Assembly (NCBI RefSeq): GCF_019635935.1
Contig: NZ_JAHBYN010000001.1
Span: 496,001-560,000 of the forward strand
Length of the DNA: 64,000 bases
DNA from: Parvibaculum sp.
GTDB taxonomy: Bacteria > Pseudomonadota > Alphaproteobacteria > Parvibaculales > Parvibaculaceae
Direction of reading: 5' to 3'
The position numbers and the translations under genes were made by a program. The notes beneath the pieces are model-generated. The model worked only from the letters and a program-made list of their open reading frames with translations. It made no database searches and had not been told where the DNA came from. Positions 46,641-59,133 of the stretch are shown piece after piece. The stretch's first letter is position 1. Every line of letters starts with the position of its first letter.

Positions 46641-46985
46641 GGCGTCGGCTCCTCGAAAATATGGTTACCCGATTGCGCGCGGGAGTGTCGCGCGCATGAC
46701 GGAGAGCCGCAACCGGCATTCCGGCCCACGGCAATGTTTCAAACCCGGACAGTCTTAACGTCCCGTTTACGTCTTCCGGCGGGATCGGCCGCGTCTATCC
46801 AGACCGCCCGCCCACCGGCGTTAACCAAAGAACCTCAGCATTTCCGCGCCTCTTAACAAAACGTAACGGCTGGCACAGCGGTTGCAATCCCCTTGGCAAC
46901 CGAACGGTCGGCGGCGCGCCGGCAGAATCAAAAAACAATGATCGCCAGCGCCAACCGGACGACCGATGACCACCAGGAGGCCAAC
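46641..46985. other. 345-bp divergent intergenic region
   Basis: No credible coding sequence. The right part contains a sigma-54 promoter (46871-46886) serving the CsgG-like gene. Several TTAAC elements precede it (near 46820, 46854). The left part holds an unremarkable promoter region for the isomerase gene. Confidence 0.6.
46871..46886 (+). promoter_or_regulatory. Sigma-54 (RpoN) promoter of the CsgG-like gene
   Basis: TGGCACAGCGGTTGCA has both the -24 TGGCAC and -12 TTGCA elements, with GG and GC ten bases apart. Initiation about 12 bp downstream leaves a leader of about 90 nt to the GTG at 46986. Confidence 0.75.
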
Positions 46986-48047
46986 GTGTTTACTCAGGCT
47001 CTGTCGATCGCGACGAACAAGGGATTGCCCAAGCGGACGCTGGGTGCTCTCGCCATGGCATTCGCCCTCACCGGCTGCGTCAGCGCAAACGCCGGATCGG
47101 ACGGCCGCTATGCGACGCCGATCGGCAACGCGCCCGTCATCACCAACGAAACGCCCTATTCCAACGCGCTGCGTTGCCTCGCCGGCCATGTGCCCGGCAG
47201 CACGGCGGCGACGCGCATTGCGGTCGGCAACATCCGCGACTACACCGGCAAGCAGGAAGCCGACGGCACCGGCATGAAGATCACGCAGGGCGCCTCGCTG
47301 ATGGCGATGTCGGCGCTGGGCAAGGCCGGCGTGCCGCTGGTCGAACGCTACGACACGGCGATCACCGAACTCGAGCTGAAATACACCAACAACAAGCTGA
47401 TCGGCGATGCGGCGGAAGGCGACTATCGCAAGATCTACGCGGGCGAAATCCGCGGCTCCGACTACTATCTCGTCGGCGGCATCACCGAATTGAATTTCAA
47501 CATCCAGTCGGGCGGTCTCAATGCCGGCTTCGCCGAAGGCGGCGACATGGGCGCGGCGGCGAATGCCTCCTACTCGGTCTATGTGATGAACATCGGTCTC
47601 GACCTGCGTCTGGTGAACAGCCGCACGCTCGAAGTCGTCGATTATGTCTCCTACCAGAAGCAGATCGTCGGCCGCGAAATCCGCGCCGGTGTGTTCGACT
47701 TCTTCGGCGGCAACCTGTTCTCGATCGGTGCGGGCACCGGCGGCCAGGAACCGATCCAGCTCGCGGTCCGCTCCGTCATCGAACGGGCCGTGCTGAAGCT
47801 GCTCGTGCCGCTCTATGGTGTCAACCCGAGCGACTGTGCCCGCTTCCCCGGCAACAAGGATCCGCTGGGCAAGATCGACTATCGCCAGGCCAACCCGGAC
47901 GCCGTGCAGCCGGCCGCAAACCGCCAGCGCGTCGCCGAAGCGCCTGCAGCGCGCCCGGCTCGCGCCGAAGCGGACGGCAACGATCCCTACGCCTACTACA
48001 GCGAACCCGTCTTCGAACGCGGCGGCCTTCGCGGCGGCCTCAACTAA
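46986..48047 (+). CDS. CsgG/HfaB-family outer-membrane lipoprotein
   Basis: 353 residues from GTG 46986, chosen because AGGAGG lies 6 bp upstream; an ATG at 46938 lacks this. The lipoprotein signal ends in ALTGC (Cys about residue 31). The CsgG fold follows: TRIAVGNIRDYTGKQEADG, the VPLVERYDTAITELE region and DYYLVGGITELNFNIQSGG. The strands SVYVMNIGLDLRLVNSRTLE and VVDYVSYQKQIVGREI are the membrane and periplasmic strands. Relatives form oligomeric outer-membrane channels secreting curli (CsgG) or anchor holdfast (HfaB). The C-terminus is an Ala/Arg-rich tail. Transcribed from a sigma-54 promoter. Confidence 0.85.
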   Translation: MFTQALSIATNKGLPKRTLGALAMAFALTGCVSANAGSDGRYATPIGNAPVITNETPYSNALRCLAGHVPGSTAATRIAVGNIRDYTGKQEADGTGMKITQGASLMAMSALGKAGVPLVERYDTAITELELKYTNNKLIGDAAEGDYRKIYAGEIRGSDYYLVGGITELNFNIQSGGLNAGFAEGGDMGAAANASYSVYVMNIGLDLRLVNSRTLEVVDYVSYQKQIVGREIRAGVFDFFGGNLFSIGAGTGGQEPIQLAVRSVIERAVLKLLVPLYGVNPSDCARFPGNKDPLGKIDYRQANPDAVQPAANRQRVAEAPAARPARAEADGNDPYAYYSEPVFERGGLRGGLN

Positions 48048-49749: not shown

Positions 49750-50592
49750 CTAAAAACGAAACTCCCGCTCGGCACTTGCCCCCGGGGCCGGCGGCCGCGG
49801 CCCGTAGCGAATCCTGAGGACGGACGGCCCGGCCGCACGCGGCCCGGCCTCGCCGAAAAGCACCGGCCAGCCTGCAAAATCCTTCGACACGAATGTCATG
49901 GCGCGTCCGTCAAGCGTTGCCTGCGACTGCCCGCCCGGCGGCAGACGATCGAGCGCGAAGAGCACGACCCAGCAGTCTTCTTTTCGGGCCTGCTCCGGCG
50001 CCGCCGCCAGTGCGCGCATCGCATCCATCGCCTCGCCCCAGGTCTGGAGCTTCTGCCAGTCCGCCATCGAAGCGCGCGATTTCGGCACGAGATAGAGCAT
50101 CCATCGCGGGTTTTCCGGCATGACCGTGTAGAGCGACACGCGGCGCACCGTCATCGCATCGGCGGTGAATCCATAGTCGATCGTAAATCCTTCAAGCGCC
50201 GCGCGCCCCGCCTCCTCGACGAAGCGCAATGTACCGACAAGTTTGCGTCCCTGCTTGCCGCCAGCCGGTTCCAGAATGGCCGACAGGCCGAAACGATCGG
50301 CGACGAAGTCCGGCAAGGTTGTCGTCGGCTTCGCCAGCGAGGCCATGACGCCACGCTCGAACGTGACCGGTCGCAAGGAACGCTCATCGCGCACGCCCCT
50401 GGCGAGCAGGGACGCCGTACGGATTGCGACGCGAACGTCTTCCGGCAGCGACGCTTCGTCGAGCGCGGCGCCGGACTGAACGCGATCGTAATTGCTGGCA
50501 GGTGGGTTCGCGGGCTGCGCCAAGGCGCCGCCGGCCAGCGCCACACAGGCACTCAGCAGCGAACCGAAGAGCAAGGAAATGGAATTGTTCAT
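49750..50592 (-). CDS. Exported protein of unknown function, 280 aa
   Basis: Signal peptide ISLLFGSLLSACVALAGGAL ending ALA-QP. The mature protein is mixed alpha/beta with SLRPVTFERGVMASLA and a strand-rich C-terminus ending ASAEREFRF. I do not recognise a family. Its start lies 14 bp after the stop of the upstream exported protein, so they form an operon. Single Cys in KEDCWVVLFALD. Confidence 0.7.
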   Translation of the reverse strand: MNNSISLLFGSLLSACVALAGGALAQPANPPASNYDRVQSGAALDEASLPEDVRVAIRTASLLARGVRDERSLRPVTFERGVMASLAKPTTTLPDFVADRFGLSAILEPAGGKQGRKLVGTLRFVEEAGRAALEGFTIDYGFTADAMTVRRVSLYTVMPENPRWMLYLVPKSRASMADWQKLQTWGEAMDAMRALAAAPEQARKEDCWVVLFALDRLPPGGQSQATLDGRAMTFVSKDFAGWPVLFGEAGPRAAGPSVLRIRYGPRPPAPGASAEREFRF

Positions 50593-50606
50593 GGCCATCC
50601 CCGGTC

Positions 50607-51800
50607 TCACTGTTCGAGCTGATATTGTTGGCCGGGCGGGAACGGCTGTTCGTACCGCCAAGCATCGGGACGCGGTTCGCCTGCGATCTCGCCCAACGCG
50701 TAAAGTCCGCTTTCGGCAAAATTGCCGATCAGGTTCGACGCCGCATCGATATTCAGCGCCACCAGCGCCCGCGCGCGTTCGGTCAACTGTCCGATCGATT
50801 GCGCCAGCAGGGGATTGCTCTTCAACGCTTCGGCAAGCTTGCCGCCGGTCAGGTTGATCGCGACATTGACGCCGGCCGCGCCGAGGCCACGCATCAACGC
50901 CTCCGATTCCGAGGCGCCGCCTTCGAGCGCCGCCAGATAGGCATTGGCGAAGCCACGCCCGCCGCCGATGATCGCGCCCGCCACCGGGAGCGCCGTCGAG
51001 GTGACGAAGATGCCGGCCTCAAGTCCGATATTCGCAATCTGATGTGCAAGCTCGCGCGTCTGCGCCGCCCGCTCCTCGTCGCGCATCGCGAGACCCTTCG
51101 AATAGTCGATCGCTGCCTGGTCATGCGCCGGCAGGTTGAGGCCGAGCCCCTCGCGCAGATCGTGCGGAATTTCATCGACCGGAATGTGCGAAAAATCTTC
51201 CTGCGGACGCACCGGCTCCCGTGCCGGCTCGGACCGCGGCTGATCCACCGTCAGGTCGAGCGTTCCCACGCCGCGACCGGCATCGTCATAGGGCCAACCA
51301 AGCTTGCCGCTGGAATTGTCCCACTCGGCTGACCATCCCTCCGCATTCTGCGGATAGTCGATCCCGAGTTCGCCCGCGGAAACCCAAAAAGTGATCTCCC
51401 ATCGGTCGCCGGCCGGAGCCGTGTATTTCTTCGTAACGAGAAATGCCCCATTGGTCGCGGTCACTGACAAATAGGTCGGCTTGGTGTCGCCGCTCTGCTG
51501 CTTCATCAACTCATTGAGTGCCTGCACCGCCGTGCCTCGCTCGTGATAGCCCGTCGGCCAGAGCGGCGGCATACCCCTGCTGATCCGTTCCTGCATTACT
51601 TCCGGCGTCGGCGGCGTCGGACGCGCAAACCCGTCCGGCAGGTTCCGCTCGATTTGCTTCTGCTGCAATTGCTGCTGAACCGGCGCTGTCGGTTGCTTCG
51701 GGACCGGCGGGGTCGGCGTCGGCCCGTGATGCTGCGCCAATGCGCTGCCCGTGAGCCCCGCCGTCAGGACCAGAAGAACCGCGCCAAGCCCTATCCGCAT
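50607..51800 (-). CDS. Exported protein of unknown function with Pro/Gln-rich linker, 397 aa
   Basis: Signal peptide MRIGLGAVLLVLTAGLTGSA-LAQ. Then a low-complexity segment (HHGPTPTPPVPKQPT..., Gln-rich) to about residue 55, a beta-rich domain of about 110 residues (YLSVTATNGAFLVTKKYTAP, WEITFWVSAGELGIDYP), and a C-terminal helical Gly/Ala region (GIFVTSTALPVAGAIIGGG, then GFANAYLAALEGGASESEAL). The last resembles the glycine-rich pre-domain of polymorphic toxins and other secreted proteins, but no toxin domain follows. A TTGACG (-35-like) lies upstream. Operon with the 280-aa exported protein. Confidence 0.7.
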   Translation of the reverse strand: MRIGLGAVLLVLTAGLTGSALAQHHGPTPTPPVPKQPTAPVQQQLQQKQIERNLPDGFARPTPPTPEVMQERISRGMPPLWPTGYHERGTAVQALNELMKQQSGDTKPTYLSVTATNGAFLVTKKYTAPAGDRWEITFWVSAGELGIDYPQNAEGWSAEWDNSSGKLGWPYDDAGRGVGTLDLTVDQPRSEPAREPVRPQEDFSHIPVDEIPHDLREGLGLNLPAHDQAAIDYSKGLAMRDEERAAQTRELAHQIANIGLEAGIFVTSTALPVAGAIIGGGRGFANAYLAALEGGASESEALMRGLGAAGVNVAINLTGGKLAEALKSNPLLAQSIGQLTERARALVALNIDAASNLIGNFAESGLYALGEIAGEPRPDAWRYEQPFPPGQQYQLEQ

Positions 51801-52018: not shown

Positions 52019-52960
52019 TCAGTAGCCGACGCCGCCGGTGAAGAAACCGCCGCCGCCATCGTTGGACGAAACCTGCTCGTGGCGCTCGCTCTTGCGGATC
52101 AGCACTTCGGCATAGGCCTTGCGCGTCTGCTGCGGGATGCGCGTCATCGACGGCGCACGTTGCGGCACACAGGCGAGCATGCCGTTGGAGCCGTGATGAA
52201 GCGCTTCGCCCGGACGGCACTCGATGACATAGCCGCCGACATAGTCGGGCGTCTTGCCGTCGGCGCCCGCGAGGCGGCCGATCGTCGTCACCAACATGTC
52301 GCCGGCGACGCAATGGAAGAGCTCGACATCCTGGCCGGGCGTCGCTTCGCTGACGGGCGAGCTCAACCGTGCCGCTTCCTCGAGACCCTTGGCGCTGACG
52401 CAGATGCCCTTGACCGGCTTCGCGACATATTTTTCACGTACGATCACATTGAGCGAACCCATCGGCGTGACGGGAGCCGCCGCCGCGAAGAAGCCGCCAC
52501 CGCCACCGCCGCCGAAGCCGCCACCGCTGCCATTGCCGACCGCGACCGCGCTGCCGCGATCCATCGCCTGCGAGGCGCTGTCGGCCGCCGCATTGGCGTT
52601 TGCGATTGCCGTCGCGGTCGCCGTCGCTTGCGCGGAGGCGTTGACATTGACCTGAACGTTGACGTTGTTGGTGTTCGTATTGGTGTTCGTGTTCGTGTTG
52701 GTATTGGTGTTCTGGTTGTAATTCTTGTTGTAGTTCGAGTTGTAGTTCTTGTTGTAATTGGAATTGTAGTTCTTGTTGTAGGTCACGTCGTGGCTCGGCT
52801 TGGACGGCTTGCCGCCGCCACCGCCGCCGCAACCGCCACAGCTGCTGCCGGCATTGGCCGGCCCCGCACCCATCGATGCGAGAAGGAGAGCGGCGGCCAG
52901 CGCCGCACCGCTCAGGGCCAGTCCACGGCTGGAAAAGGTAAACTTCATCATCTGCTTCAT
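52019..52960 (-). CDS. Exported protein with YN/NT tandem repeats and Cys-containing C-terminal domain, 313 aa
   Basis: Signal peptide (LALSGAALAAALLLASM, cleaved near ANA-GS), then a CGGCGGGGGG turn. Residues 61-83 are repeats of YNKNYNSN, and residues 84-99 NT dipeptides. An Ala/Thr/Asn-rich stretch (ASAQATATATAIANANAAAD) and a Gly-rich run follow to residue 156. The C-terminal 150 residues form a domain with four Cys (GICVSAKG, FHCVAGDM, VIECRPGE, MLACVPQ). Asn/Tyr/Gln-rich repeats favour amyloid or fibre formation. Not a recognised family; a surface or matrix role is inferred. Confidence 0.75.
   Translation of the reverse strand: MKQMMKFTFSSRGLALSGAALAAALLLASMGAGPANAGSSCGGCGGGGGGKPSKPSHDVTYNKNYNSNYNKNYNSNYNKNYNQNTNTNTNTNTNTNTNNVNVQVNVNASAQATATATAIANANAAADSASQAMDRGSAVAVGNGSGGGFGGGGGGGFFAAAAPVTPMGSLNVIVREKYVAKPVKGICVSAKGLEEAARLSSPVSEATPGQDVELFHCVAGDMLVTTIGRLAGADGKTPDYVGGYVIECRPGEALHHGSNGMLACVPQRAPSMTRIPQQTRKAYAEVLIRKSERHEQVSSNDGGGGFFTGGVGY
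52664..52780 (-). repeat. In-frame tandem repeats encoding YNxN and NT units
   Basis: Short direct repeats built on GTTGTAGTTC / GTTGTAATTG (plus strand) encode YNKNYNSN units, then GTGTTC / GTATTG repeats encode NT dipeptides. Low-complexity DNA of this kind is prone to slippage and length change in multiples of 6 bp. Confidence 0.8.
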
Positions 52961-53448
52961 CCTGACACTCCCGGCCCTCGGGGGGGCTCGTTGGCCTGCG
53001 TCTTAACGGGAACTCAGGGAAGCGGATGCAGAAGCCATGCCGGAGTGCCAACCGCGCAAACATGGCTTCCAAACCGTTAATGCAACAATCCGGCCCGTCG
53101 CTATCGGCACAAAACCGGACGCCGCGTTAACTTTTCATCGCAGGGGCGGCAGCGCCTTGGACCTCTCAACCCATTGTTTTATAAACGATATTTCGGAGAA
53201 CAGGGCCGCCGCCACCGCTGTCGTCACGCGGCCATTAACATCTGGCACAGTTTCTGCTCCCTGATGCCTGTCCGCCCGGATCGGGGCGCCGTCGCGTACC
53301 GGATCGGTACGGAGCGCCACGCGGGGACAGGACGGAGACGGTGAGACCCGAAACGGGACGATCCGTTTTGAATGGGCTAACATCCGTTCTGGCAAGAGGG
53401 GCACCCCTCGCCGGGCGGATACGCGGCCCGAGGCGAGGGATGAGGGCG
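52961..53448. other. 488-bp divergent intergenic region
   Basis: No convincing gene. It contains a sigma-54-like site at 53243-53258 facing the PAS_5 gene, several GTTAA/TTAAC motifs, and a GC-rich stretch just before the PAS_5 start. The left 100 bp serve the YN/NT-repeat gene. Confidence 0.55.
53243..53258 (+). promoter_or_regulatory. Sigma-54-like promoter upstream of the PAS_5 gene
   Basis: TGGCACAGTTTCTGCT carries a full -24 TGGCAC and a -12 CTGCT (consensus TTGCW), with GG and GC ten bases apart. The start codon is about 190 bp downstream, a long leader, so assignment to the gene is tentative. Confidence 0.5.
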
Positions 53449-54120
53449 ATGAAGCACAAGACGACACAAGCGCTGTTCGACTACTGGAACGCGATCCGCG
53501 CCGGACGCCCGGCGCCGCGACGCAGCGAGATCGAACCCGGCGAGATGCGCGCCATCCTCCCCTATGTCTTCATTCTCGAGCGCAAGGACCGCGACACCTA
53601 TCGCTTCCGCCTTGCCGGCACCGGCCTTTGCAGCGTTTACGGCATGGAGTTCCGCGGCCACAACATGATTTCGATGTGGGGCGACGACTGCGCCGAAAAC
53701 CTGAAGGAAGCGCTCGACGACGTGATCCGCAACGCCGGCGTCGCCGTCGTCGAATATACCGCCGCGACGACCGATGGCCGCGAAGCCACTTTCGAGATGG
53801 TGCTGCTGCCGCTGCTGCACGAGGACGGCTCGCTGTCGCGTGTGCTTGGCGCCGCCGTTCCCATCGACCGGGCGCCCTGGGTCGGCGACCGGCTGCTGGC
53901 GCGCCAATGGATCGACCGGCTGCGCCGCCTCGACCCCGAACATATGCCCAAGCGCGCACCGGCCGCACAGGTCGCCGCCCGCCGTCTCGCCGCCGAAAAA
54001 CCGCCGGTCACAGTCGCCAGCCTCGGCAAGCGCATGTCGCAAGGCGCGCCGCTCCGCAGCGAGCGCTCCTATCTGCGGCTTGTGAAAGGCATGCTGAGCA
54101 ACACCGAGGAACATGGCTGA
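53449..54120 (+). CDS. PAS_5 family protein
   Basis: 223 residues. The PAS_5 family (mostly Alphaproteobacteria) opens with ALFDYWNAIRAGRPAPRRSE and continues IEPGEMRAILPYVFILERKD and YRFRLAGTGLCSVYGMEFRG, all present. A PAS-like sensory fold without an attached output domain; some relatives are linked to cell-cycle or light control. An ATG at 53440 is an alternative start. The 3' end nearly meets the convergent membrane-protein gene. Confidence 0.88.
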   Translation: MKHKTTQALFDYWNAIRAGRPAPRRSEIEPGEMRAILPYVFILERKDRDTYRFRLAGTGLCSVYGMEFRGHNMISMWGDDCAENLKEALDDVIRNAGVAVVEYTAATTDGREATFEMVLLPLLHEDGSLSRVLGAAVPIDRAPWVGDRLLARQWIDRLRRLDPEHMPKRAPAAQVAARRLAAEKPPVTVASLGKRMSQGAPLRSERSYLRLVKGMLSNTEEHG

Positions 54121-58016: not shown

Positions 58017-58335
58017 ACCGGCCCTGCGACATTTTTTTCCGAAAATTTCGTGGTGTCCCGAAAGCGGAATCGGCGGCAACGAGGTTCGGCCATTTTGAAC
58101 GATACCTCACACCGAATTTCGAAAAAGCGTTGCGGCACAACGACTTTTTGTAACGGCCAATACGTTCAATTTTATTCAAATTGAATCGTTTCGACTTTTA
58201 GGAAAATGCCCGTCGAATTAGCACCGTATTTAGTTCGAATGTGATTCACACGTTTAAACCGGTGAAAATCCCTCGCTGCCATTCTGCGCTCATAGGCCCA
58301 CAAGACCGGGCTTGTGAGATATCGGGGTGGCGACA
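58017..58335. other. 319-bp AT-rich intergenic region
   Basis: No coding sequence. Markedly more AT-rich than its surroundings. Contains TTCAATTT-TATTC-AAATTGAA (58165-58185), an 8-bp perfect inverted repeat, and CACAAG-ACCGGG-CTTGTG (58299-58316) 20 bp before the LapG-like gene. Probably a regulated promoter region for that gene. Confidence 0.55.
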
Positions 58336-59133
58336 ATGTGGTTGCGTAAACTTGCTCTTCTGACGACAGGTCTCTTGCTGGCGGTTGCTGGCTGTCAGGC
58401 GCCGGATCGCGTCGGCAGCATCGGCTTCACACAGGACGGCGGCATCCGCGATTATCGCGTCGCCGCGGCAATGCCGGTCGGCCAGCAGTCTCCGCCCCCT
58501 TACGGCTATATCGGCTTCTGCATCCGCAATCCGGACGAATGCGCCGGCGGCACCGACGAGCCGGCAGATATGGTGCTGACGCCGGCGCGCTGGGCCGAAC
58601 TCGCCGAAGTCAACGACTGGGTCAACCGCGCGATCCCGCAGGTCGACGACATGACGCTCTTTCAGCGCGCCGAGTGGTGGGCCATTGCCGACGAGCGCGG
58701 CGGCGACTGCGAGGACCTGGCGCTTCTGAAGCGCAAGATGCTGATCGAACGCGGATGGTCGCCGGACCAGCTCCTGATGGCGGTTGTGCGCGAATGGAAT
58801 GGCGACGGTCATGCCGTATTGCTGGTCAGGACCGACCGCGGCGAATTCGTGCTCGACAACAAGACCTGGGACATCGCTCTCTGGAACGACACGCCCTATC
58901 AGTGGATCAAGCGGCAATCGCGCGAACGGCCCTTCATCTGGGTCAATCTCGACCGGAAGACCTTCCGCGAGATCGCGCAAAACGATTTCCCGCCGCTCGG
59001 GGAACCCGCGTCATTCCTTGCCGCGCTTGAAAGGAACTTGCCCGCCGACTTGCGGCCGGGCATCGCCGAAGGCCAGACAGCGAGCCGCGAAGCCTTGAAG
59101 GAGGAACCGACCGCAGCGCTCGCTTTCAACTGA
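58336..59133 (+). CDS. Transglutaminase-like cysteine protease lipoprotein (BTLCP, LapG-like)
   Basis: 265 residues. Lipoprotein-type signal ending LAVAGC (Cys20). The peptidase triad is C125 in RGGDCEDLALLK, H159 in GDGHAVLLV and D174 in FVLDNKTWD, the arrangement of LapG-type bacterial transglutaminase-like cysteine proteases that cleave large surface adhesins in the periplasm. No LapD or adhesin gene is adjacent. A GTG at 58327 is an alternative start. Followed by a strong terminator. Confidence 0.88.
   Translation: MWLRKLALLTTGLLLAVAGCQAPDRVGSIGFTQDGGIRDYRVAAAMPVGQQSPPPYGYIGFCIRNPDECAGGTDEPADMVLTPARWAELAEVNDWVNRAIPQVDDMTLFQRAEWWAIADERGGDCEDLALLKRKMLIERGWSPDQLLMAVVREWNGDGHAVLLVRTDRGEFVLDNKTWDIALWNDTPYQWIKRQSRERPFIWVNLDRKTFREIAQNDFPPLGEPASFLAALERNLPADLRPGIAEGQTASREALKEEPTAALAFN

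Follow-up and report, generated by a model that had tools for sequence, protein, structure and literature searches.

A probable Parvibaculum orthologue of the holdfast anchor component HfaE, and its co-occurrence with HfaB across families of Alphaproteobacteria

How bacteria keep hold of an adhesive that ranks among the strongest in biology has yet to be settled. In the 64,000-nucleotide stretch of Parvibaculum DNA analyzed here (the window), a gene for an exported protein with an asparagine-rich tract lies near a gene for a CsgG-type channel, raising the question of what this protein is and whether it is tied to the channel. Based on sequence comparisons, we conclude that the protein probably belongs to the holdfast anchor, as the HfaE orthologue of Parvibaculum, and we put the probability of this reading at roughly 85%. 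HfaE was described as a holdfast-anchoring factor in Caulobacter in 2019 (PMC6372794); in the literature consulted, it is represented by a single mutant of a single species, and no homology had been recognized. The gene and the parts of its product are as follows.

52019-52960, minus strand: putative HfaE orthologue, an exported protein of 313 amino acids (open frame, homologues, synteny with Caulobacter hfaE)
52850-52960, minus strand: signal peptide, residues 1-37, with inferred cleavage after ANA (inspection; comparable N-termini in homologues)
52664-52780, minus strand: Asn-rich low-complexity tract, residues 61-99, with YNKNYNSN and NT repeats (TRF, Asn fraction; length and composition differ among homologues)
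52022-52480, minus strand: conserved C-terminal domain, residues 161-313, with four conserved cysteines, predicted to be all-beta (alignments A1, A2 and A4; AlphaFold2)
52022-52036, minus strand: C-terminal GGVGY motif (near invariant across families)

The frame is open from an ATG start, and the same frame is open in 33 of the 61 genomes searched, that of the window counted, at identities down to 35%, indicating that this is a real gene. The architecture given by the sequence-only reading was confirmed in this frame, and a CGGCGGGGGG segment follows the signal peptide; next come YNKNYNSN repeats, (NT)n, a tract of Ala, Thr and Asn, a run of Gly and, at the C terminus, the four-Cys domain. The export signal, judged by eye, is hydrophobic and of the Sec type and ends in GAGPANA. 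Tandem arrays found by TRF at 52666-52781, covering the YNKNYNSN and NT repeats, have periods of 6, 12 and 24 and scores up to 106. The Asn tract cannot be put down to chance within the window: the peak Asn fraction per 50 residues is 0.46 in this protein, and none of the 60 other called genes exceeds 0.12. The conserved cysteines of the C-terminal domain are residues 187, 217, 248 and 264.

The channel encoded nearby can be named with more precision than its CsgG-like character alone would allow.

46893-48047, plus strand: HfaB, a lipoprotein channel of the CsgG type that serves the holdfast anchor in the outer membrane (NF037935, Pfam CsgG, PDB CsgG)

A CsgG-type channel had been placed 4 kb away, and the distance between the two genes is indeed 3,972 bp. 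The product matches Pfam CsgG at 3.7e-18 and CsgG of the PDB at 4.6e-10. The curli system (CsgBAC-DEFG) likewise has a CsgG-type channel, but that of Parvibaculum scores as HfaB, with 387.2 bits against the HfaB equivalog model NF037935 (cut-off 300), while the CsgG equivalog gives it no more than 38 bits (cut-off 505). It carries the lipobox LTGC, and its true start is probably downstream of 46893. In Caulobacter, HfaA and HfaD reach the cell surface only with HfaB (PMC6707917).

The link to HfaE comes from gene order in five Caulobacter-type genomes (G507, G512, G537, G488 and G541). There, hfaA, hfaB and hfaD are followed by eight genes and then by a gene with the target domain, which is therefore at position hfaB+10. 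The eight genes encode an ABC-F ATPase, a sensor kinase, a substrate-binding protein, an ATPase, a permease, a small exported protein, an uncharacterized protein and an M16 peptidase, names that, the M16 peptidase excepted, are our own reading. All eight were called in G512; elsewhere, one or two are hidden under antisense ORFs in the output of our own gene finder, with the spacing unchanged. In G541 (L219), hfaA, hfaB and hfaD score 160, 452 and 442 bits, respectively, against their NCBIfam models. In G442, which has the same genus label but is more distant, a shorter interval separates hfaB from the domain. An HMM built from Parvibaculaceae alone matches the hfaB+10 gene of the five genomes at E values of about 1e-5 to 1e-9, and it matches the target gene in 40 of 40 loci tested in family f57 (E 1e-5 to 1e-19). 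The label Caulobacter-type and the equation of f57 with Caulobacteraceae are our reading of gene content and high HfaB scores.

This position can be compared to the locus tags of C. crescentus, in which hfaB is CCNA_02712 (PMC12340889) and hfaE is CCNA_02722 (PMC6372794). The offset is 10, equal to the position hfaB+10; this locus-tag identity is based on genes counted, using our own gene finder, in close relatives of C. crescentus NA1000. In another set of tags, hfaA is CC2628, and CC2639 is a hypothetical protein counted as a signature of Caulobacter, Oceanicaulis and Maricaulis (PMC2241609). The equal offset suggests that the tags CC2639 and CCNA_02722 designate the same gene. A C. crescentus hfaE mutant sheds its holdfast, and the description of HfaE presents it as an exported protein that lacks known homology (PMC6372794). 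Because of the hfaB+10 position, the equal locus-tag offset and the match to the Parvibaculaceae-only HMM, we identify the Parvibaculum protein as a probable HfaE.

Further comparison reveals both likenesses and differences. Like HfaE of C. crescentus (CCNA_02722/CC2639), the Parvibaculum protein is exported and has a Cys-containing C-terminal domain with a GGVG tail, as seen in the Caulobacter-type relatives; the gene lies on the same side of hfaB, at the same class of distance, and always occurs with HfaB. The N-terminal stretch, however, is Pro-rich in the Caulobacter-type proteins and Asn-rich in Parvibaculum, and HfaE is accompanied by HfaA and HfaD in Caulobacter, whereas neither was detected in Parvibaculum. 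HfaA and CsgA resemble the Parvibaculum protein in being exported, tied to a CsgG-type channel and of low-complexity polar composition, but its C-terminal domain is different from theirs. The HfaA model NF037934 (cut-off 50 bits) matched neither the 313-residue protein nor anything else in its genome, and a Pfam search with the protein gave no family at E<=1, the curlin repeat included.

The C-terminal domain has not been captured by existing models. Scans of the 313-residue protein and seven distant homologues with Pfam and NCBIfam returned no model for it, and a phmmer search of the PDB with the protein returned low-complexity matches only, mostly to single-chain antibodies. AlphaFold2 predicts an all-beta core of moderate confidence (mean pLDDT 62.7, about 80 in the core). 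A Foldseek search of the PDB with this moderate-confidence model gave nothing at E<=0.001, and the best VIA Z was 2.9; such weak or missing matches are no proof of a new fold. Among the homologues in the 61 genomes, the N-terminal tract varies in length and composition, and the C-terminal domain is well kept, with four invariant cysteines and the GGVGY end. A profile of this domain also finds members in other families, which have a similar plan and different low-complexity stretches: Pro-rich with PPPP and NVNVNANA in f57, INKNININ in f5, Pro/Val-rich with PSPVVPG in f4 and Glu-rich in f108.

This variation bears on the proposal that the locus may encode a system for secretion and matrix formation not described before, in which a prion-like subunit would form fibres or amyloid after secretion by the CsgG-type channel, together with two neighboring exported proteins. 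Both of these proteins exist as ORFs with overlapping ends, located between hfaB and hfaE.

50607-51800, minus strand: lineage-specific exported protein, outside the conserved system (of 20 regions compared, present in that of G017 alone; no family match)
49750-50661, minus strand: lineage-specific exported protein, outside the conserved system (of 20 regions compared, present in that of G017 alone; no family match)

We dropped the two as members of the system, as synteny confines them to very close relatives. Asn-rich repeats beside a CsgG-type channel are what a fibre system might be expected to offer. Nevertheless, we consider such a system, as distinct from amyloid formation by the protein itself, improbable, given that the repeat composition is not kept among families, the curlin repeat is unmatched, the two companions are not conserved, the channel scores as HfaB and the family to which the protein belongs is the one at the hfaE position. 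The claim of an undescribed system thus gives way to an HfaB channel and a probable orthologue of a protein already described (PMC6372794).

The distribution of the domain can be compared to that of HfaB. In a class-wide sample of 387 Alphaproteobacteria, the domain was found in 18 genomes and HfaB above its cut-off in 21, with HfaB present in all 18 domain-positive genomes. In 149 genomes of f57, the domain was found in 108 and HfaB above its cut-off in 112, and 37 had neither; again, every domain-positive genome (108/108) had HfaB. The profile used in the f57 scan (A2) was built with two f57 sequences; no f57 sequence went into the profile of the class scan (A1) or that of the A4 test. Fisher tests gave 3e-28 for the class and 7e-31 for f57, values that exaggerate the association, given the relatedness of the genomes. 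A better argument comes from two genera of f57, g275 and g288, each of which includes genomes with both genes and genomes with neither, and by family f5, in which the HfaB and HfaE-domain genes are on separate contigs, yet occur together in five of five positive genomes. Across both samples, no case of the HfaE domain without HfaB was found among 124 distinct domain-positive genomes; HfaB above its cut-off without a detected HfaE was found in G338, G453, G476, G564, G106 and G203. Together, these genome comparisons show that the putative HfaE tracks HfaB in no fewer than five alphaproteobacterial families. The tie to the CsgG-type channel, drawn at first from proximity and composition, is therefore upheld by co-occurrence and by an arrangement in which the two genes are convergent and close in four families.

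In Parvibaculaceae, hfaB and the target gene are convergent and about 1-10 kb apart, between DsbA/rhomboid genes on one side and PAS/GMC genes on the other, and the intervening genes vary. The convergent order, at a spacing in this range, is also found in f4, f57 and f108 (four families with f1), and hfaA is upstream of hfaB in the examined loci of f4, f57 and f108. Loss has been joint as well, which fits a link between the two genes: in the sister genus g2 (G027, rated 100% complete, and G031), GMC adjoins DsbA and the block from HfaB to PAS, target included, is missing.

53341-54120, plus strand: PAS_5 protein, a conserved neighbor of hfaE given as context and not claimed for the anchor (Pfam PAS_5, 5.4e-40; adjoins hfaE in Parvibaculaceae and f57)

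One interpretation of this arrangement is that HfaB and HfaE are associated by inherited synteny alone, with no functional tie. The flanking rhomboid, DsbA, PAS and GMC genes are conserved too, and the joint absence in g2 may reflect a single deletion. We regard this interpretation as very improbable in light of the separate contigs of f5, the mixed genera g275 and g288 and the holdfast shedding of the hfaE mutant (PMC6372794).

HfaB-type genes were also seen in other arrangements. Several f57 genomes have, besides hfaABD, a second locus with two tandem HfaB-type genes (G512:C1:2759497-2761220 and G460:C1:775289-776913; also G520, G510 and G541). Contig C1 of G050, in family f15, has five HfaB/CsgG-like genes that score 141-154 bits, below the HfaB cut-off, and HfaE was not detected in this genome. 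At G242:C19:32518-33282, one TAG stop codon breaks the HfaB reading frame.

We propose that HfaE would be exported via Sec and then passed to HfaB, or through this CsgG-type pore, for display on the outside of the cell. There, the beta domain with its cysteines would engage the anchor together with the GGVG(x)Y tail, and the long low-complexity N-terminal stretch would reach outwards and entangle or bind polysaccharide, such that the adhesive is not shed. Among the 61 related genomes, HfaB was found in 34, HfaA past its cut-off in four and HfaD in none, a pattern of missing matches to the NCBIfam models that is compatible with diverged forms of HfaA and HfaD. Since neither was detected in Parvibaculum, HfaB and HfaE may form the entire protein anchor there, possibly a minimal one. 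We tentatively suggest, while giving it less than an even chance, that HfaB has its most constant partner in HfaE rather than in HfaA or HfaD, and that Parvibaculaceae use a two-protein minimal anchor whose surface work, shared by HfaA and HfaD in Caulobacter, falls to the Asn-rich tract of HfaE.

Alternatively, the HfaE-family protein of Parvibaculaceae may no longer serve a holdfast and may instead anchor another exopolysaccharide or a capsule through HfaB. The HfaA and HfaD models are unmatched in most Parvibaculaceae, the holdfast-synthesis marker HfsF is weakly matched (27 bits in Parvibaculum, cut-off 700) and a description of Parvibaculaceae, in the portion available, mentions neither stalk nor holdfast (PMC7179689). 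On the other hand, a missing match does not equal a missing pathway, HfaB is well over its equivalog cut-off and an exporter-flippase-deacetylase cluster is present in the same genome, and we consider the loss of a holdfast role somewhat unlikely. HfsF is uninformative as a marker here, as no relative reaches the 700-bit cut-off.

The genome has three Poly_export genes, one of them within a polysaccharide cluster at about 225-236 kb of G000:C1 (L233:8340-18667). This cluster encodes a glycosyltransferase, a Poly_export lipoprotein, a Wzz/tyrosine-kinase protein, a flippase weakly like HfsF, an Acetyltransf_6 protein and a polysaccharide deacetylase. It is a candidate source of polymer for HfaE to anchor; we do not assign it to a holdfast because the HfsF score is far below the cut-off.

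The data presented here delimit the HfaE domain and show its tracking of HfaB. What appears to be new is that HfaE extends beyond Caulobacterales, that its domain has no Pfam or NCBIfam model and that, in Parvibaculum, HfaE stays with HfaB while HfaA and HfaD are undetected. With an anchor perhaps reduced to HfaB and HfaE, Parvibaculum could provide a simple system for testing the role of each part. The window also includes, at 58327-59133, a gene for a BTLCP (LapG-type) cysteine proteinase (Peptidase_C93, 3.2e-61) that is kept within a few genes of hfaE across Parvibaculaceae. LapG-type proteases free surface adhesins in other bacteria.
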